Below, piece by piece: positions 12,347 through 20,099 of a stretch of 20,099 nucleotides of DNA (positions are counted from its first letter, which is position 1; each line of letters opens with the position of its first letter). This DNA comes from a virus, in the IMG/VR virus record IMGVR_UViG_3300009543_000340, positions 1 through 20,099 of that record; one strand, given 5' to 3'. A program made the translations under genes and the position numbers. The notes below the pieces were generated by a model. The model saw only the letters and a program-made list of their open reading frames with translations. It was not told where the DNA came from and searched no databases.

Positions 12347-12866
12347 AAAGAAAGTAACACCGAAGAAGAAAGTACCTAAGTATGTAGCAAAGAAGACAAT
12401 GTTACAAGAGTCTATTGGTCATTGGTATTACAATGGTGACATGGAAATATCTAATAAGTTCGGCTTTTTATATTTAATGATAAACCGAACAGAAGGTATG
12501 GCATACATAGGTAAGCGTCAGTTTTGGAAATACAAGAAAGGAAGTATGACTAAAACAGGGGCTAATACTTGGCGGCTTTATAAGTCGTCTTCTTCACACA
12601 TAGAGGAGTGCATTAAAGAAGGCGATGAGTTTTCTTATCACATGTTAGGTGTATTTGAAACAAGAGCGTGGTTGTCTTATGGAGAAGCTTATTTACAAAT
12701 GGCTTTAGACACGTTAACTGCTCGCGATGAAGAGGGTAACCGTTTATGGTATAATAACCAAGTTGCCCCTGTCAAGTACATTCCGAAGCGAAGTGATATA
12801 GAGTTAAAAACTTTAGAAGACGCTTTTAATAGTGCACATAAATTAACTTCATTAATTGGAAAATAG
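12327..12866 (+). CDS. GIY-YIG nuclease, SegE-like type
   Basis: This 179-residue protein has a Lys-rich N-terminal tail (1-24), then a GIY-YIG-type domain: GFLYLMIN at 46-53, AYIGKRQFW at 59-67, TWRLYKSSS at 81-89, and E120 (SYGEAYLQ) as the probable catalytic Glu. The pattern is like SegE-type GIY-YIG proteins of phages. GGAGG at 12316-12320 supports the ATG. It lies between the exonuclease and primase-helicase genes, and no gp3-like endonuclease I is seen in the window. It could therefore be a homing nuclease or a replacement branched-DNA nuclease. The domain call is good, the role open. Confidence 0.78.
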   Translation: MAKKAVKKKVTPKKKVPKYVAKKTMLQESIGHWYYNGDMEISNKFGFLYLMINRTEGMAYIGKRQFWKYKKGSMTKTGANTWRLYKSSSSHIEECIKEGDEFSYHMLGVFETRAWLSYGEAYLQMALDTLTARDEEGNRLWYNNQVAPVKYIPKRSDIELKTLEDAFNSAHKLTSLIGK

Positions 12867-12867
12867 T

Positions 12868-14514
12868 ATGGCTAAAACTAAAGGTACCTTTCTAGGTCAC
12901 GCTGAATGCGCGGCTTGTGGGTCTGAAGATAATGTGGCTGTGTATGATAGCGGCCCTTTAACCTGTATGGGTTGTGGTGCAAAACACCCTAATCCATATG
13001 ATAACCCGTCCGAAGATACTGAGTTTAAGCTAGTCGAAAAGAAGCAATCCGCGTTTGTAGATGTATCCGCTGTTGATGGATACAGCACTCGTGGATTTAA
13101 GGAGAGAGGCATACCTAAAGACATCTGTGATTACTTCCAAGTAAGATCAGGTGTTGATTCAAGTAACAATGTTATCGAGCACTATTACCCTTATGGTGTA
13201 GACGATATCACAGGTTACAAGGTGCGTACTCTACCTAAAGACTTCCGAGCGGCTGGTACACTCGAAGGTTTATTCGGTCAACGTAATTTTAACGGAGGTA
13301 AGCGGTTAGTAGTCACCGAGGGTGAGCTAGATGCAATGGCAGTTGCCTACGCCTCAATGAAGAAGTATGGTAAAATTTATCCTGTAGTATCTTTACCTTC
13401 TGCTAGTGGTACAAAAGCATTGTTAGAACAGCGAGACTGGGTTCGTCAATTTGATGAAGTAGTTCTCATGCTAGACAACGATGAAGCAGGTAAGGCGGCT
13501 CTTGACAAGGCGTGTAGTATTGTCGGTATTGACAAAGCTAAGATTGCTAAGTTAAAAGAAAAAGATGCTAATGATGAATTGCTCAAGCACGGTACAGACG
13601 CTATTATGTCTGCTATCTGGGATGCACAACCTTGGTCTCCTTCTGGGATCCTCCAAGGTGACACTCTATGGGAAAAGTTCTTAGATCGTGAAGCGACTGA
13701 GAGCATACCCTACCCTCCTTGTATGGAAGGTGTTAACAACTTAACTAGAGGTATGCGCTACGGTGAAGTAGATTTGTTTACATCAGGTACTGGCTCAGGT
13801 AAGAGCACGATGATTAAAGAAATTGTATTACATCTAAATGAAACTACAGAAGATAAAATCGGAATGATATCCCTAGAGGAAGGCCCCGGTGATACTGTAG
13901 AAAAGTTTATTGGTATGCAGTTGAAACAAAATCTTACAGATGTAGGTGCTGAGATATCACAAGAAGATAAAAGAGCGGCTTTTGAAGCTGTATTTAGTTC
14001 CAATCGTATTATTCTATTAGACCACCAAGGCTCTGTTGCTGATGGTTCTTTGATGGATAAGATTGAGACTATGTGTTTAATGGGCTGTAAATACCTTATT
14101 CTAGATCACTTAACTATTGCTACTTCAGAAGTAGAAGGTGATGCTAATAGCGCTGTAGATAAGGTAATGTCAGATCTATTGAAGATAGCCAAGAAACACA
14201 ATGTCTGGTTGGGTGTAATCTCTCACCTAAGAAAGACTAGTGGTGGTGGTGCGGCATTTGAAGAAGGTAAGATACCGTCTCTAGATGACATTAAAGGTAG
14301 TGGTAGTATTAAGCAAATATCTTTTCAGGTAATTGCATTCGCAAGAAACTTAATCTCCAACGATGAACGAGAAAAGAACACAATTAAAATTCGTGTGCTT
14401 AAGTCTCGTTTTACTGGTCGTACAGGTGATGCAGGTGGTGCTTTTTACGAAGCAGAAACTGGTCGTCTACAGTATGTTGAAGAAACAGGTTTTAAGGATA
14501 TAACCGAAGTATAA
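12868..14514 (+). CDS. Primase-helicase, T7 gp4-like
   Basis: This 548-residue fused enzyme unwinds DNA and makes primers. The zinc-binding domain has C14, C17, C33 and C36. The TOPRIM primase core has E151 (VVTEGELDA) and D203/D205 (LDNDEAG). The RecA-like helicase has Walker A GTGSGKST (307-314), E337-338 (SLEEG), Walker B LILDH with D413, ISHLRK near 451-456, KGSGSIKQ and KSRFTGRTG. The length is close to T7 gp4 (566). The T7 C-terminal Phe that contacts polymerase is absent; it ends ITEV. ATG 12868 is chosen over an upstream TTG at 12856. The only upstream signal is a weak GGA (12858-12860), so translation may be coupled to the nuclease gene. Confidence 0.97.
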   Translation: MAKTKGTFLGHAECAACGSEDNVAVYDSGPLTCMGCGAKHPNPYDNPSEDTEFKLVEKKQSAFVDVSAVDGYSTRGFKERGIPKDICDYFQVRSGVDSSNNVIEHYYPYGVDDITGYKVRTLPKDFRAAGTLEGLFGQRNFNGGKRLVVTEGELDAMAVAYASMKKYGKIYPVVSLPSASGTKALLEQRDWVRQFDEVVLMLDNDEAGKAALDKACSIVGIDKAKIAKLKEKDANDELLKHGTDAIMSAIWDAQPWSPSGILQGDTLWEKFLDREATESIPYPPCMEGVNNLTRGMRYGEVDLFTSGTGSGKSTMIKEIVLHLNETTEDKIGMISLEEGPGDTVEKFIGMQLKQNLTDVGAEISQEDKRAAFEAVFSSNRIILLDHQGSVADGSLMDKIETMCLMGCKYLILDHLTIATSEVEGDANSAVDKVMSDLLKIAKKHNVWLGVISHLRKTSGGGAAFEEGKIPSLDDIKGSGSIKQISFQVIAFARNLISNDEREKNTIKIRVLKSRFTGRTGDAGGAFYEAETGRLQYVEETGFKDITEV

Positions 14515-14523
14515 GGAGGCTTT

Positions 14524-16212
14524 ATGTCTTATGATTTAACCTGCTACAGAAGCTTGGTAACTTCCATTGTTCTAATGAGAAGGTATGTACGACCTACTAA
14601 GCTTTCAAACAAAGTATACAACAAGCTAGTCACTCTACATGACAATGCTCGTGAAACTATACGACCTTGGGACGAAACACAACTTAAGAGTGAGCCTAAG
14701 CTATTAGACTCAGAAAAGTGTTACGAACTAATTACATCTCTCAAAGGCTTTGGTAGCTGGAAGGCTACTGGAGTCCAAAGAGAGCTTCAGAAACTGGTTG
14801 CTTTACTTGAAGACCGTTGTGAAAAACTAATGGACAAAGAGTATGAGCAAGCATTCATGCAAGGAAAAAGTATGACTAACAAAGAAGCAGTTAAGCTGGT
14901 AAATGAGTTCCTCAACGGGCCTCACGTTCAAAGCCTATTAATACACAAAGGAGGAACAATTAAGCGTTCTGGTAAAAACACTAAGATACCCACTACCTAC
15001 GGGTGCTTAGAAGCTACAATGGTTTCACAATGCTACACTAGTGGTGCTTTCGAGTATTACAATCGTGAAGAAGCATTCCTCACTTGGTTTGGCTCTGAGT
15101 TAGGTTACTACTATGATTACTTAATCGGTAAAGGACGTTCATCCTCTAAGGACGAAGATGATGATGGTGGTATGGGTTTCTTCTCAGCTTTAATGGGTTC
15201 TAGTTCTTCTAAAGAATCCCCTTCTGCTACAGAAACAGCATGGGCACAAGGCGCTTGGTGCTCTGTATGTTTAGAAGGTGAGACTATTCCCGGTATTGTT
15301 TTAAGAGTAGACCCTGTTAAGTTTGACAACGAAGAGCTAGACTTTATGGCTCAGAAGATTAAGCTAACTAAAGAAAAAGCAGAAGAAGCAGTAGTAGCGC
15401 TTAAAGGAGATTCTATTACTGAACTCTCTTTTGGTAAGGGCGTTGTTGTAAGTCTAACCCCACAACACTCTGTTATGGAAACAGACGAGTATGATCCGTC
15501 TATTGTTAACATAGAACCCTCTGCTGAACAGTTAGTAAAGCGTATTGTTGATATTAGCAAGAAACCAGAATCAGAACAACCTAAAGTAATAACTGGTTTG
15601 TTCTATGGTGTTCCCGGTACAGGTAAGTCTAAGTTGGTTGAGTATATTGGTCATCAACTAAACCTTCCTGTGCTAAAGAAGACCTATGGTGAACTACAAT
15701 CTAAGTATGTTGGTGAAGGTGAGAAGAATCTCCACAAGGCTTTTGAGGAAGCTAGAGAGACTAACTCTATTCTGTTAATTGATGAGATCGATTCAATGGC
15801 TAACTCTCGTGAGTCAGCGGATAGACGGCATCAAAAGACCTTTACTAACCAGCTGTTAACAGAGCTAGACAACTTCCAAGGTTATTTCTTTTGTACTTCT
15901 AACTTTATGGAAGGTTTAGATTCTGCTGTTCTTAGACGTTTATTCCTCAAAACTGAGTTCAAGTTCTTAACCCCTGAACAGGTTGAAACTTGTTTTAAAT
16001 TATACTTCCCTCGATTTAAGAAATCTAAGTTAGGTATTTACGACTTCGTTACTCCGGGCGACCTTAAAGTGGTGCAACAAGCCGCTTTGTTTGAGCCTAA
16101 AGTGCCTACCATTGCTCGCATTAGGGAGATGGTTACAAGCGAAATAGACCTGAAAAGAAAGACCCTTCCTCAAGTTATGAAAGCAGATATGGGTAAGTCC
16201 TTTCAGTTTTAA
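14524..16212 (+). CDS. AAA+ ATPase, classic remodelling type, with unknown N-terminal domain
   Basis: This protein has 562 residues. The C-terminal AAA domain has Walker A GVPGTGKS (362-369), a pore-loop-like SKYVGEGEKN (393-402) as in VPS4/katanin/p97-type ATPases, Walker B ILLIDEID (416-423), sensor 1 TSN (458-460) and Arg-finger candidates R471/R472. Such enzymes form hexameric rings that pull on proteins. The N-terminal 340 residues are unrecognised: helical to about 200, then a flexible acidic/Ser-rich linker (205-235) and a possible beta domain (245-315). AAGGAGG at 14513-14519 is a strong ribosome binding site. The stop codon is the start of promoter 4. T7 has no such gene; the substrate is unknown. 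Confidence 0.92.
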   Translation: MSYDLTCYRSLVTSIVLMRRYVRPTKLSNKVYNKLVTLHDNARETIRPWDETQLKSEPKLLDSEKCYELITSLKGFGSWKATGVQRELQKLVALLEDRCEKLMDKEYEQAFMQGKSMTNKEAVKLVNEFLNGPHVQSLLIHKGGTIKRSGKNTKIPTTYGCLEATMVSQCYTSGAFEYYNREEAFLTWFGSELGYYYDYLIGKGRSSSKDEDDDGGMGFFSALMGSSSSKESPSATETAWAQGAWCSVCLEGETIPGIVLRVDPVKFDNEELDFMAQKIKLTKEKAEEAVVALKGDSITELSFGKGVVVSLTPQHSVMETDEYDPSIVNIEPSAEQLVKRIVDISKKPESEQPKVITGLFYGVPGTGKSKLVEYIGHQLNLPVLKKTYGELQSKYVGEGEKNLHKAFEEARETNSILLIDEIDSMANSRESADRRHQKTFTNQLLTELDNFQGYFFCTSNFMEGLDSAVLRRLFLKTEFKFLTPEQVETCFKLYFPRFKKSKLGIYDFVTPGDLKVVQQAALFEPKVPTIARIREMVTSEIDLKRKTLPQVMKADMGKSFQF

Positions 16213-16228
16213 ATACCACCTTATATAG
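16211..16228 (+). promoter_or_regulatory. Candidate phage RNA polymerase promoter 4
   Basis: AAATACCACCTTATATA-G (+1 G presumed at 16228) is the closest of the four to T7 at its downstream end, sharing TATA-G. As with promoter 1, its first bases complete the TAA stop of the upstream gene. It would start a transcript for the dCMP deaminase, the 16694-17092 gene and the ribonucleotide reductase, ending at the terminator near 19008. Confidence 0.78.
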
Positions 16229-16243
16229 AAGGAAGCCAATCAT

Positions 16244-16270
16244 CCCCACCTAGCACGGACTAGTGTGGGG
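16244..16270 (+). promoter_or_regulatory. Leader hairpin before the dCMP deaminase gene
   Basis: CCCCAC (16244-16249) pairs with GTGGGG (16265-16270) and CTAG (16250-16253) with CTAG (16260-16263). T16264 is bulged and the loop has six bases. It starts 16 bases after the presumed transcription start and ends just before AGGAG (16273-16277). No T-run follows, so it is not a terminator. It may stabilise the message or affect ribosome access. Confidence 0.5.
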
Positions 16271-16283
16271 TCAGGAGTATACT

Positions 16284-16697
16284 ATGCAAAGTGAAAAGAA
16301 AGACCGTTTAATGATGGACATAGCAAAACGTGTAGCTCAACAATCTTATGATTCCTCAACCCAAGTAGGTGCAATTGTTGTTTCCGGTGATCAGATACTA
16401 GGTTACGGTTACAATGGCACCCCTGCTGGCTTCGATAACGAGTGTAAGGACGAAAAAGGCAAGACACTACCTTGTGTAATACATGCTGAAGTTAACGCTT
16501 TAGCTAAGGTGGCTCGTTCTAATAATTCTACTGAGGGAGCTACAATCTATACAACTTTATCACCATGTATTAACTGCGCTTTATCCATAGTGTCGTCTGG
16601 AATAACCGAGGTAGTCTTCCAAGACTATTTTAAGTTAGGCACTGAGGGCTTAAGTGTTCTTGAACACGCTGGTTTAAAAGTTAGGAGATTAAAATGA
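16284..16697 (+). CDS. dCMP deaminase-like zinc enzyme
   Basis: This 137-residue protein should convert dCMP (or a similar cytidine nucleotide) to dUMP, feeding dTMP synthesis. The zinc site is clear: HAEVNA with ligand H67 and proton-shuttle E69, and SPCINC with C95 and C98. YGYNGTPAGFDNEC near 41-54 is typical of dCMP deaminases. The ATG at 16284 has AGGAG at 16273-16277; a GTG at 16263 in the same frame lies in the leader hairpin and is rejected. It is the first gene after promoter 4. No thymidylate synthase is seen in the window. Its stop overlaps the next start (ATGA). Confidence 0.9.
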   Translation: MQSEKKDRLMMDIAKRVAQQSYDSSTQVGAIVVSGDQILGYGYNGTPAGFDNECKDEKGKTLPCVIHAEVNALAKVARSNNSTEGATIYTTLSPCINCALSIVSSGITEVVFQDYFKLGTEGLSVLEHAGLKVRRLK

Positions 16698-17092
16698 AAG
16701 TATATATTGGAAAATACCCAACATATCGTTGGTACCACAAGCTGTTTCGATTAACACCCAAACAAATTGTTTCCGTAAAGATAGATAAGCACGATACTTG
16801 GGGCATGAATTACACCCTTGCTTTAATTATCTTGCCTATGCTTAAACAACTTAAAGAAACAACACATGGGTATCCTGCTCTTCCAGACTTATTGGAGGAC
16901 GCAGAGGATGTAACAGACGACCCCGAAAAAGCTTGGGATATTATTTTAGACAAAATGATAGCCTCATTTAGTTACGTGATAGATCTGGAAAAAGACGATA
17001 TCGCTTTCGATGCCGATCACTTAACTAACCACCTCGCCGCCAAAAAGGGCTTCTCTCTTTTCGGCAAATATTACAACAATTTGTGGGACTAA
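16694..17092 (+). CDS. Conserved phage-type protein, unknown function
   Basis: This 132-residue protein has the segment VKIDKHDTWGMNYTLALIILP, then LKQLKETTHGYPAL (about 27-62). I have a memory of this pattern in small phage proteins near nucleotide-metabolism genes, with no known activity. It is followed by an acidic helical part (64-100). It is coupled to the deaminase by ATGA and precedes the ribonucleotide reductase, so a link to dNTP metabolism is possible. A small GTGGG/CCCAC hairpin (17083-17097) covers its last codons and stop. Confidence 0.78.
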   Translation: MKVYIGKYPTYRWYHKLFRLTPKQIVSVKIDKHDTWGMNYTLALIILPMLKQLKETTHGYPALPDLLEDAEDVTDDPEKAWDIILDKMIASFSYVIDLEKDDIAFDADHLTNHLAAKKGFSLFGKYYNNLWD

Positions 17093-17121
17093 CCCACTAT
17101 CACCCCAAGGAAAGAAATAGA

Positions 17122-18981
17122 ATGACATACAGACCATTTACAAGTTATGAAGAGTTCATCTATCTGAGCAGGTATGCTCGGTGGATTGAAGATGAAGGAA
17201 GGAGAGAGACGTGGCCGGAAACAATTAAGCGTGTAGTTGATGCTTTTAAACGTCAGGTAAATCACAATACAGAAATTCCTTGGAATGAAATAGAAACAGC
17301 ACTACTTAACCGAGAGATTGTCCCATCAATGCGTGTTATGATGGCGGCAGGCCCTGCTCTTGACAACAATCACATTGCCGCTTACAACTGTTCCTTCTTA
17401 GACATTGATAGCTACACTGCTTTCTCTGAAGCTTTGTATGTACTAATGCATGGAACAGGTTTGGGTTTCTCTGTTAAAGAAGAATCTATTAGCCAGTTAC
17501 CTGCTGTAGCAGAGTGTACAGGTAAAAAGATTACATTTAAAATAGAAGACTCAAAAGAAGGATGGAGAGATAGCGTAGATGTACTCTGTGAACTAGCACC
17601 AATGGGTTACAAGGTGTACTTTGATTACAGTGCTATCCGACCTGAAGGCGCAAGACTCAAGACCTTTGGTGGCAGGGCTAGTGGTCCTGACCCCTTAAAG
17701 CAACTACACCGACACATCATTGACATCTTTTCCGATGCTAGAGGGCGACATCTAACTACAGTTGAAGCTCACTCTATCGTTTGTAAGATTGCAGAGGTTG
17801 TTGTTGTAGGTGGAGTAAGGCGCTCTGCTCTGATTAGCCTGTCTGATTTATCAGATGACAACATGGCTAAAGCAAAGAGTGGTGAGTGGTGGATAGAGCA
17901 TGGTGAGTTCGCACTTGCAAACAATTCAGCAGTATACGAAGGTAAACCAACTGAAGAGGAGTGGATTAAAGAATGGGACACAATAAAAGCATCTGGTTCT
18001 GGAGAAAGAGGCATATTCAATCTGGAGAGCGCGTTCAAGAAGTGCGAAGAGATTGGAAGAAAACCCCTAGTCATGGGAACCAACCCGTGTGGGGAAATCC
18101 TCTTGAGGGACGGGCAATTCTGCAACCTCAGTGAAGTTATTATTCGTCCTGAAGATACTATGGAAACTCTGATGGACAAAGTACGTCTATGCGCTATTCT
18201 TGGTACTATACAATCTACCTATGATCAGCTGAAAGGGCTTCGTCAAAAGTGGGTTGATAACACCATTGAAGAGCGTTTGTTAGGTGTTTCTCTAACAGGT
18301 ATTATGGACAACGACTTAACCAACGGTGCTGATGAAGGTCTTGAGAATCGTCTTACTGAACTTCGTCTTGAAGCTAACGCTACTAATATTGAGTTTGCTG
18401 ATATATTAGGCATCAACCGTTCTACTGCAGTAACTACTGTTAAACCTTCTGGTACTGTATCACAGCTTTGTGGTGTTAGTTCTGGAATCCATCCGTCACA
18501 CGCTAACTCCTACATTCGTAGAGTACGTAACGACAAGAAAGACCCTTTGACTCAGCTTATGATTGATGAGGGTGTTCCCGGTGACACAGACTTCTATAAC
18601 CCTAATGCTCATGTATTCGAATTCGGTATTAAGCGACCTAACAGCCGCACACGAGACGATATGACAGCATTACAGTTCCTAGAGATCTGGAAAGCCTATA
18701 AAGTGTTCTGGACTGACCACAACCCTTCTGTAACAGTATCTATACACGAAGACGAGTGGCGTGGTGTTGGAGATTGGGTTTACAATAACTTCGACATTGT
18801 TGGTGGGTTATCTTTCCTACCTCACAGTGGTGGTACTTATCAGCAGACTCCTTATGAGACCTCTGATGATTTACCTCCAGAAGCTAACCCAGACTTTTCC
18901 CGTTTGACTGAGTATGAAATGAGCGATAACACTACATCAGATAAGCAACTTGCTTGTTCTGCTGGTGTATGTGAAATCTAA
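17122..18981 (+). CDS. nrdJ: Adenosylcobalamin-dependent (class II) ribonucleotide reductase
   Basis: This 619-residue enzyme reduces ribonucleotides to deoxyribonucleotides using B12. It resembles the monomeric Lactobacillus leichmannii type (739). Seen residues: C90 (AYNCSF) and C334 (FCNLSE) as the substrate-reducing pair; NPCGE at 321-325 with radical C323, N321 and E325; TVKPSGT near 439-445; and C-terminal C612/C617 (CSAGVC) for re-reduction. The C323-C334 spacing of 11 equals C408-C419 in the L. leichmannii enzyme. The ATG at 17122 has AAGGAAAG at 17107-17114; a GTG at 17083 in the same frame is rejected. The gene is closed by a terminator. Activity depends on B12 in the host. Confidence 0.96.
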   Translation: MTYRPFTSYEEFIYLSRYARWIEDEGRRETWPETIKRVVDAFKRQVNHNTEIPWNEIETALLNREIVPSMRVMMAAGPALDNNHIAAYNCSFLDIDSYTAFSEALYVLMHGTGLGFSVKEESISQLPAVAECTGKKITFKIEDSKEGWRDSVDVLCELAPMGYKVYFDYSAIRPEGARLKTFGGRASGPDPLKQLHRHIIDIFSDARGRHLTTVEAHSIVCKIAEVVVVGGVRRSALISLSDLSDDNMAKAKSGEWWIEHGEFALANNSAVYEGKPTEEEWIKEWDTIKASGSGERGIFNLESAFKKCEEIGRKPLVMGTNPCGEILLRDGQFCNLSEVIIRPEDTMETLMDKVRLCAILGTIQSTYDQLKGLRQKWVDNTIEERLLGVSLTGIMDNDLTNGADEGLENRLTELRLEANATNIEFADILGINRSTAVTTVKPSGTVSQLCGVSSGIHPSHANSYIRRVRNDKKDPLTQLMIDEGVPGDTDFYNPNAHVFEFGIKRPNSRTRDDMTALQFLEIWKAYKVFWTDHNPSVTVSIHEDEWRGVGDWVYNNFDIVGGLSFLPHSGGTYQQTPYETSDDLPPEANPDFSRLTEYEMSDNTTSDKQLACSAGVCEI

Positions 18982-18988
18982 ACCAATT

Positions 18989-19008
18989 GGGGGTTTCGGC
19001 CCCCTTTT
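18989..19008 (+). terminator. Terminator after the ribonucleotide reductase gene
   Basis: GGGGG (18989-18993) pairs with CCCCC (19000-19004). Inside, a T-G pair closes a TTCG tetraloop, and TTTT follows at 19005-19008. It lies 7 bases after the stop codon, so it should end the promoter 4 transcript and is a clear rho-independent-type hairpin. Confidence 0.88.
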
Positions 19009-19024
19009 ATTAAGGAATAACAAA

Positions 19025-19246
19025 ATGCAAAAGCAATATACTTACAAGATTAAGTTTACTACTGATCGTGATAATGTTGAAGCCAGTACTTTTACTGTTA
19101 GTGGAAACGCTAGGGGTAATATGCCTTCTCAAATGTTTGTCAAGCTTCTACGTGAAGGTATCGCCCAAGGTGGTTTCTTTCTAGAATCTTGGAGAACACC
19201 TTACCGTGGAAATAAACCCCTTCCACCTAATTCAATTGAGAAGTAG
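19025..19246 (+). CDS. Small basic protein, unknown function
   Basis: The protein is 73 residues from the ATG at 19025, with AAGGAA at 19012-19017. The frame is open further upstream but crosses the terminator and the end of the reductase gene, so the longer form is rejected. It is beta-rich at the N-terminus (YTYKIKFTTD), then has a helix MFVKLLREGIAQGG and a basic, Pro-rich tail. No family is recognised. It is the first gene after the terminator. Confidence 0.72.
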   Translation: MQKQYTYKIKFTTDRDNVEASTFTVSGNARGNMPSQMFVKLLREGIAQGGFFLESWRTPYRGNKPLPPNSIEK

Positions 19247-19255
19247 AGGTACATC

Positions 19256-19648
19256 ATGAAAATGAGAACTAGAGTAATACGCTTGTTAGCAGAGTTCGTA
19301 CGGAAGACCCACGGCTCTTCTATTAAAGATGCAGTTGATGAAGCATCATTCTTTCACGATTTAGTGTTTCAAGCTATAGACCTTACTGATTCGAAAGAAG
19401 AAGCTATTAAAGTAATGGCTACGTATTTTGCAGGTCAAGGTGAAGATGCTTCTGAAGCTGAAACCCTGTCTAGTTATGCTTATACGTTAGTTACTACTGC
19501 TATTTATGAAGTAGTACCTCAAAGTAAAACTAACCCTGTAACTGTTAATGTCGGTAAATTCCCTACTGACTTTTCTAAGCCTATTGTAGATGCTTCAAAT
19601 GCAACTTCAGTAGACTTAATGGGCGGTCCAGAAGCCGTTAAATTCTGA
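19256..19648 (+). CDS. Unknown protein
   Basis: This 130-residue protein has a helical N-terminal two thirds (1-85) rich in Ala/Glu and an extended C-terminal third (PVTVNVGKFPTDFSKPI). GAGGTA before the ATG is the ribosome binding site; Met3 is an alternative start. No family is recognised. It lies between the terminator and the ClpP-like gene. A small head- or packaging-related role cannot be excluded. Confidence 0.7.
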   Translation: MKMRTRVIRLLAEFVRKTHGSSIKDAVDEASFFHDLVFQAIDLTDSKEEAIKVMATYFAGQGEDASEAETLSSYAYTLVTTAIYEVVPQSKTNPVTVNVGKFPTDFSKPIVDASNATSVDLMGGPEAVKF

Positions 19649-19655
19649 TACCTTT

Positions 19656-19675
19656 TCAAGTTTAACTTAACTTGA
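19656..19675 (+). repeat. Inverted repeat between the unknown gene and the ClpP-like gene
   Basis: TCAAGTT (19656-19662) and AACTTGA (19669-19675) form a 7-bp stem with a 6-base loop, followed by GATTTTGATT. This could be a weak terminator or a message-processing hairpin. The stem is AT-rich and the T-run is interrupted, so a terminator call is uncertain. Confidence 0.45.
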
Positions 19676-19706
19676 GATTTTGATTAATTTATCAAGGATA
19701 TAAATA

Positions 19707-20099
19707 ATGTACGAAATGAAAACCGTATACGAAACACCCGGCCTACTCCTAGCAGAAACTGGAGTAATAATGTTAACTAGTTCGTTTAACCAAGCGAACA
19801 TCATGCCAATTGTGGCGCGTATTATGGAGTACAATTTACTACCCCAATCTAAACAACCCGAAGAAATTAAGCTTATCATCAACTCCCCCGGTGGAGAAGT
19901 AGCCTCGGCTATGCACCTGATTGATACAATGAAGACCTCAAAGATCCCTATTCGTACTATTGGTATGGGTATGGTGGCTTCTTGTGGTGTTTTAACACTA
20001 ATGTCAGGTACAAAAGGCCGTAGATGTGCCTCCCCTACTACCTCTATCATGTCTCATCAGTACGCTGGTGGTACTGGAGGTAAAGATCACGAGATGAGA
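19707..20099 (+). CDS. ClpP-like serine protease (3' end outside window)
   Basis: The first 131 codons are visible. NSPGGEV (59-65), GMVASCG with S92 as nucleophile, and MSHQYAGGTGGKDHE with H117 as the general base match the ClpP fold. The Ser-His spacing of 25 equals E. coli ClpP (S97-H122 in mature numbering). The third catalytic residue, an Asp, would lie beyond the window. AAGGA at 19693-19697 supports the ATG. The SHQ..GG.GG...E form resembles ClpP-like proteins known from T4-like marine phages, whose role is unclear. It may degrade proteins, act in head maturation, or work with the phage's AAA+ ATPase. Confidence 0.88.
   Translation, partial: MYEMKTVYETPGLLLAETGVIMLTSSFNQANIMPIVARIMEYNLLPQSKQPEEIKLIINSPGGEVASAMHLIDTMKTSKIPIRTIGMGMVASCGVLTLMSGTKGRRCASPTTSIMSHQYAGGTGGKDHEMR

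Follow-up and report, generated by a model that had tools for sequence, protein, structure and literature searches.

A Cdc48/IetA-like AAA+ ATPase that may take the place of ClpX beside a phage-encoded ClpP-like peptidase

The IMG/VR fragment IMGVR_UViG_3300009543_000340 (20,099 bp, analysed here over its entire length and referred to as the window) comes from a marine bacterial virus and carries genes for a AAA+ ATPase and a ClpP-like serine peptidase, raising the question of whether the two proteins form a phage-made protease or act separately. A preliminary description noted a KYVG-like pore loop and all ATPase motifs in the former and the catalytic residues S92 and H117 in the latter, and suggested a protein remodelling or degrading machine; the lack of an IGF/L-type docking loop and the distance of several kilobases between the genes were raised against a direct pair. 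Our analysis of related genomes makes a functional link more likely than was then thought, and we see about an even chance that the two proteins form a working phage-made degradation machine in which a Cdc48/IetA-like motor replaces ClpX. The AAA+ protein would be a classic-type (Cdc48/PAN/IetA-like) ring unfoldase, substrates would pass through its KYVG pore into the phage-made ClpP peptidase, and the resulting phage-encoded ATP-dependent protease would act during the replication phase. Ring formation, physical docking, degradation activity, and the substrates, which could be host or phage proteins, are what we infer from the comparisons below.

The AAA+ protein consists of one classic AAA module preceded by an N-terminal region (residues ~1–320) for which no known family was found; the fold-search lists were filled by matches to the AAA module and barely probed this region. 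Its assignment as a classic AAA protein relies on PF00004, the Walker A and Walker B motifs, an aromatic pore loop, the sensor 1 motif TSN (residues 458–460), and an arginine-finger candidate, R471/R472, which we presume to have this role. The core motif residues are invariant across the family alignments; the pore loop and ATPase motifs of the preliminary description are borne out by the open reading frame (ORF), the PF00004 match, and these alignments (Table 1). In the AlphaFold model used, the second of two (25 sequences; pLDDT of 81, versus 66 for the first), residues ~315–555 are predicted to adopt a fold for which a VIA-align search returned p97/Cdc48, NVL, Rix7, and PAN with Z scores of 20–22 (21.8 for p97 and 20 for PAN). 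The closest curated families are IetA/IteA (9e-23 in PADLOC and 3.9e-19 in NCBIfam), matched by the AAA module only and, for NCBIfam IteA, with a score of 69 bits, far below the cut-off of 510 bits. No match to AAA_2 (PF07724) was listed for the window AAA+, and the AAA+ of the related record G044 scored 17.5 bits against this family, with a cut-off of 27.

The ClpP-like gene is incomplete, since the window is the whole fragment and the contig ends inside the gene. The encoded part scores 90.1 bits against PF00574 (gathering score 20.2). S92 and H117 had been correctly recognised as retained, both being invariant among the aligned ClpPs (Table 1), and the catalytic aspartate, which lies past the contig end in the window, is present in all 18 others. 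Full-length relatives in AAA+-bearing phages comprise 186–192 aa, or 203 aa for the gene called in G040. In G004, the relative is complete and scores 92.8 bits against the NCBIfam clpP equivalog, below its cut-off of 308.6 bits; the window-type ClpP is therefore considered a divergent subfamily.

The two genes co-occur throughout the clade of the window AAA+. Thirty-four records of this clade were mapped (without G017, G021, G025, G026, and the partial G011, and including G047 and G049, in which the N-terminal region is shorter), and ClpP is present in all ten that reach the syntenic place, namely, the window, G003, and all eight records extending at least 9.4 kb past the AAA+ gene. The remaining 24 end no more than 6.1 kb past it. 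Seven of the ten (G022, G036, G040, G044, G048, G050, and G051) were recovered by scans that did not use ClpP. The gene order in the mapped relatives is primase/helicase, AAA+, dCMP deaminase, ribonucleotide reductase (RNR), in some cases NrdB, in some cases MoxR, a metallopeptidase-VWA protein, and one more gene, followed by small genes and ClpP, with 3.5–11.3 kb separating AAA+ from ClpP in the window and its kin.

Adjacency of the two genes in a second lineage also argues for a link. G055 was found by the AAA+ profile scan, and four more contigs were found using the G055 AAA+ as the query. The second-lineage AAA+ gene, encoding 343–349 aa, overlaps the ClpP gene by 14 bp in G055 and L237, and a 59-aa ORF separates the two in L238–L240; the adjacency (five contigs, two lineages) holds at 57% AAA+ and 70% ClpP identity. 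In L224, the AAA+ gene lies at 13994-15025 and the ClpP gene at 13414-14007. By comparison, ClpP was seen in the fetched flanks of none of 70 bacterial loci encoding related AAA+ proteins. On the AAA+ tree, the second-lineage and window groups join with support of 95/94, on long branches and with few outgroups (the AAA+ of G050, Mcat5, and AR9 were missed by the Walker selection pattern and do not appear on it), while on the ClpP tree bacterial ClpP is grouped with the second-lineage ClpP (100/100) but not with the window ClpP. One motor lineage therefore seems to go with two ClpP lineages. Directly upstream of the AAA+-ClpP pair in L238 lies a 215-aa gene (L238:2920-3567) whose product appears to have a signal peptide and is distantly similar to a ClpP-like family (phrog_1684, 1.8e-4).

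Other phages combine the same ClpP family with a true ClpX. Of 453 ClpP loci found, 80 were retained, and 50 of 77 (L139–L215) were tested for AAA+; among the 27 left out, five (L139, L140, L142, L143, and L179) lie in AAA+/ClpP records and the rest are mostly short contigs. In a search of 50 ClpP-bearing records, AAA_2 was above the cut-off in three (G065, G089, and G080), each with a full ClpX that has the zinc region at its N-terminus and, at the position of the E. coli IGF, an MGF or IGF loop, and in none of the eight AAA+-clade records and one second-lineage record of the same search. Phages appear to differ in what fills the motor slot. In the three ClpX-bearing records, clpX and clpP are roughly 25–29 kb apart, and the distance between the genes of the window is therefore a weak argument against a direct pair. 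A phage ClpX together with ClpP has already been published, in jumbo phage Atu_ph07, as described in PMC6102473. Such phages resemble the window in that motor and peptidase are both phage-borne, with the genes far apart in G065, G089, and G080, and differ in having a true ClpX where the window has a Cdc48/IetA-like motor. This motor in the place of ClpX would be the new element; the literature searches turned up no phage in which ClpP is paired with a non-Clp AAA+.

Several observations weigh against a working pair. Four contigs of sister phages (G005–G008) share the replication genes and ClpP and have no AAA+ between primase and RNR; 49 of 50 further ClpP records gave no AAA+ profile match, the one weak match (G080) being the ClpX; and G054 encodes a 308-aa AAA+ with no ClpP within 48,090 bp. 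These cases suggest that AAA+ and ClpP are not an obligate pair. Moreover, the separated genes lie in a generally conserved block, so that their co-inheritance is not specific, and co-occurrence within the clade was rejected as proof because the whole block is inherited together. Across ten genomes, AAA+ and ClpP distances correlate with r = 0.92, the highest value among the different-gene pairs tested, and with a partial correlation of 0.70, which none of 2000 label permutations equalled; however, the values for AAA+ and dCMP deaminase are almost as high (r = 0.90, partial 0.63), with 0.73 for AAA+ and primase. Since label permutations ignore relatedness, the rate correlation lends weak support. 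The co-occurrence check called for by the preliminary description thus gave a divided answer, as ClpP accompanies the AAA+ in every record of the clade that reaches the syntenic place, but ClpP also occurs without this AAA+, and one lineage has an AAA+ without ClpP. The proposed machine gains from this fixed co-occurrence, from the adjacency in the second lineage, and from ClpX in phages of the same ClpP family, and loses from the sister phages and G054. In phages without AAA+, an SbmA/BacA-like transporter gene (PF05992, 2e-123) lies directly before clpP (G006, L077:9097-10083).

The occurrence of ClpP without AAA+ and the retention of AAA+ without ClpP in G054 would fit separate action, with the AAA+ protein serving as a protease-free remodeller of replication or nucleotide machinery (e.g., primase/helicase or RNR) and ClpP working with host ClpX/ClpA or alone. 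The position of the AAA+ gene, 9 bp after the primase/helicase gene in the window and adjacent or close to it in almost every mapped relative, points in the same direction. We consider this explanation tenable but doubtful. The primase neighbourhood is not constant, since in G052–G054 the AAA+ gene is near nrdB, and the second-lineage AAA+ lies beside clpP, not beside primase. No AAA+-clade record that reaches the syntenic place lacks ClpP. The loss of canonical docking residues from ClpP also speaks against separate action, though phages with this ClpP family still encode a ClpX that bears IGF.

Docking provides two further points against the degradation machine. No conserved internal IGF/L docking loop was found in the AAA+ family alignments, as the preliminary description had held; an IGF-like tripeptide, MGF, does occur at residues 217–219, inside a disordered stretch, and is not kept in G004 or G022. 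In addition, the AAA+-clade ClpP has replacements at Y60, Y62, F82, F112, and L114 of E. coli ClpP, which we take to be docking-cleft residues. It has 9–15 residues before position 21, compared with 20 in mature E. coli ClpP. The second-lineage ClpP retains Y62, F82 (Y in L238), F112, and L114. The cleft is also changed in the ClpX-bearing phages of the same ClpP family, and since these encode an IGF-bearing ClpX, the change does not exclude IGF docking.

The C-terminal tail of the window AAA+ is related to the [IVM]GF tails of a wider AAA clade. The tail reads VGF or AGF in second-lineage proteins and IGF in that of G054; in the window clade it is GYx[LIMF] or SF/NF followed by two residues. 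The pattern [ILMV]G[FLYM] occurs within the last ten residues of 41 of 70 related bacterial AAA+ proteins (18 among the 21 closest) versus 17 of 530 control ORFs. The AAA+ tail resembles the IGF tripeptide of Clp in an uncommon location; it clusters phylogenetically and may be structural. It is conceivable, if unlikely, that proteins of the Cdc48/IetA-like AAA+ clade use a disordered, IGF-like C-terminal tail, rather than an internal loop, to dock on ClpP, with phages bringing a matching ClpP. VGF/AGF tails would then go with the near-canonical phage ClpP cleft and GYx[LIMF] or SFQF tails with a rebuilt one, and the IGF tail would occur where the phage has no ClpP and the host ClpP would serve. 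Tail docking would be a third kind of motor-to-barrel-peptidase coupling, besides internal IGF loops and HbYX tails. The conserved tail is no proof of ClpP docking, since it is so frequent in the bacterial relatives while ClpP was found near none of the 70 bacterial AAA+ genes (fetched flanks of up to 6 kb; the count leaves aside 10 of 80 surveyed loci, and some viral loci, in which no AAA ORF was obtained). The tail-bearing bacterial AAA+ proteins could use the ClpP that the host encodes. Many AAA+ proteins at the bacterial loci (L257–L336), of ~570–835 aa and with no assigned role, have a conserved [IVM]GF end.

Another motor could be the partner of ClpP. A MoxR AAA+ and a metallopeptidase-VWA protein are encoded between RNR and clpP in G004, G022, G036, G040, G044, G048, G050, and G051, and if this pair served ClpP, the classic AAA+ would be unrelated to it. 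We find this improbable, since the window and G003 have no MoxR/VWA block at that place yet keep AAA+ and ClpP, and in the examined part of G052, G053, and CRP-7, MoxR and VWA occur but no ClpP was found. A pair of this kind is known from jumbo phages, and PMC7824862 proposes a role in virion assembly for it; the likeness lies in its position directly upstream of clpP in the relatives, and the difference in its absence from that place in the window. According to the same paper, ClpP has a patchy distribution in some jumbo phages, a pattern expected for proteases used against the host. At L067:8271-10991, the pair upstream of clpP consists of a MoxR ATPase and a DUF2201 metallopeptidase-VWA protein.

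The best PHROG match of the window ClpP, phrog_94 (4e-20), is a head maturation protease, and PMC5964084 mentions a prohead-protease view of phage ClpP. A head-maturation protease unrelated to the AAA+ protein, an identity which the preliminary description had raised against its own proposal, is nevertheless very improbable given the gene's place in G002 and in other phages of the same ClpP family. In G002, the terminase gene follows clpP at a distance of ~6.7 kb, the portal gene at 8.8 kb, and the capsid gene at 16.3 kb, and phoH adjoins clpP; in other phages of this ClpP family, the neighbours of clpP are primase or helicase genes. Terminase, portal, and capsid genes are all present in G054, which has no ClpP, and the G004 relative scores 64 bits, under the NCBIfam head-protease cut-off of 120. 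No structural genes were seen in the window. Given the location of clpP among replication genes, at a distance from the portal and capsid genes, this candidate was rejected, and ClpP is probably not a head-maturation protease.

Compared with ClpXP and ClpAP, the proposed machine would share the AAA+ ring and a ClpP peptidase with an S/H/D triad in its family; its motor, a PF00004 classic AAA and not AAA_2, has neither a zinc domain nor a conserved internal IGF loop, and the window-type ClpP lacks the aromatic cleft residues. IetAS, an anti-phage system, is a two-gene arrangement of AAA+ and serine protease. The similarity to it includes this arrangement as well as IetA/IteA being the closest curated AAA families; the window AAA+ would have ClpP as its partner in place of a subtilase, and the match is far under the cut-off. 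No S8 subtilase match was obtained among the scanned neighbouring ORFs (12856 to 19648). Two more distant phage AAA+ genes adjoin subtilase genes, which shows that predicted pairs of AAA+ and serine protease exist nearby in AAA+ sequence space. A motif search for subtilases near the 70 bacterial AAA+ genes returned none and counts for nothing, as it missed two genuine S8 genes. With PAN, Cdc48, and the 26S Rpt ATPases, the window AAA+ shares the predicted AAA module fold and the pore-loop pattern, while it has no HbYX tail and no proteasome gene was seen.

Table 1. Positions in the window of the AAA+ and ClpP-like genes, their motifs, and neighbouring genes
Feature	Position	Strand	Basis or remark
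Primase/helicase	12856..14514	+	phrog_239, 8.5e-148; 9 bp upstream of the AAA+ gene
AAA+ ATPase, 562 aa	14524..16212	+	ORF; PF00004, E 7e-28, residues 359–477
Walker A GVPGTGKS, residues 362–369	15607..15630	+	Family alignment
Pore-loop-1-like KYVG, residues 394–397	15703..15714	+	Y395 and G397 invariant in 25/25, V396 nearly
Walker B ILLIDEID, residues 416–423 (DEID 420–423)	15769..15792	+	Family alignments
R471/R472, arginine-finger candidates	15934..15939	+	Invariant in 25/25
C-terminal tail, residues 555–562	16186..16209	+	Predicted disordered; aromatic third from the end
dCMP deaminase	16263..16697	+	phrog_174, 3e-51; between AAA+ and ClpP
Adenosylcobalamin-type (class II-like) RNR	17083..18981	+	PF21995; between AAA+ and ClpP
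Small ORF directly upstream of clpP	19256..19648	+	Kept upstream of clpP in G002, G003, G004, and G022
ClpP-like serine peptidase, first 131 residues	19707..20099	+	PF00574, E 2.1e-25; cut by the contig end
S92, catalytic serine	19980..19982	+	Aligns with E. coli S97; invariant in 19/19 aligned ClpPs
H117, catalytic histidine	20055..20057	+	Aligns with E. coli H122; invariant in 19/19 aligned ClpPs

The window encodes a T7-type RNA polymerase, a family A DNA polymerase, a 5'-3' exonuclease, and a primase/helicase, followed by AAA+, dCMP deaminase, a class II-like RNR, and the ClpP-like protein (Table 1). The replication genes resemble those of CRP-7, Kolga, and DSS3_VP1. The label "T7-like" given at first describes the replication and RNA polymerase genes; however, the related record G002 encodes a tape-measure protein (phrog_3519, 1e-78) and a distal tail protein, as well as portal and capsid proteins. 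Because of these tape-measure and distal tail proteins, the window phage is probably a siphophage with T7-type replication, not a T7-like podophage. The RNR matches TIGR02505 with 1.2e-87, under the family cut-off, and no Pfam or PHROG match was found for the small ORF upstream of clpP.

The RNR class switches among close relatives: the window and G004 have the class II-like (B12) enzyme with no NrdB seen, and at the same place G003 (L081:4060-7021) has a class I NrdA with a glutaredoxin match and an NrdB-like gene. In G027 (L084:9734-12269) and G051 (L223:36-2608), the DNA polymerase gene is split by a ~160-aa ORF, which suggests insertion of a homing endonuclease or intron. Directly after the portal gene, G002 (L070:13111-17559) and G033 (L097:6651-11342) carry a gene of 1482 and 1563 aa, respectively, whose N-terminal part has a Mu F head-morphogenesis domain (PF04233) and whose C-terminal part matches a single-subunit RNA polymerase (PF00940, 4e-5 and 2e-9, both above the cut-off); the G002 gene also matches phrog_414 (2e-23). 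The product may be an RNA polymerase that is packaged in the virion and fused to a head protein, in addition to the separate T7-type polymerase that such phages encode.

If the AAA+ and ClpP-like proteins form a degradation machine, phages would build such machines by swapping motors, either ClpX or a Cdc48/IetA-like ring, on one ClpP family. Phages would thereby reveal how motors and barrel peptidases come to fit each other, and would offer an example of a classic AAA+ driving ClpP, of which the second lineage provides a compact, directly expressible pair (343 and 197 aa, overlapping genes). For the phages themselves, the machine would be a possible route for the removal of host proteins during replication.

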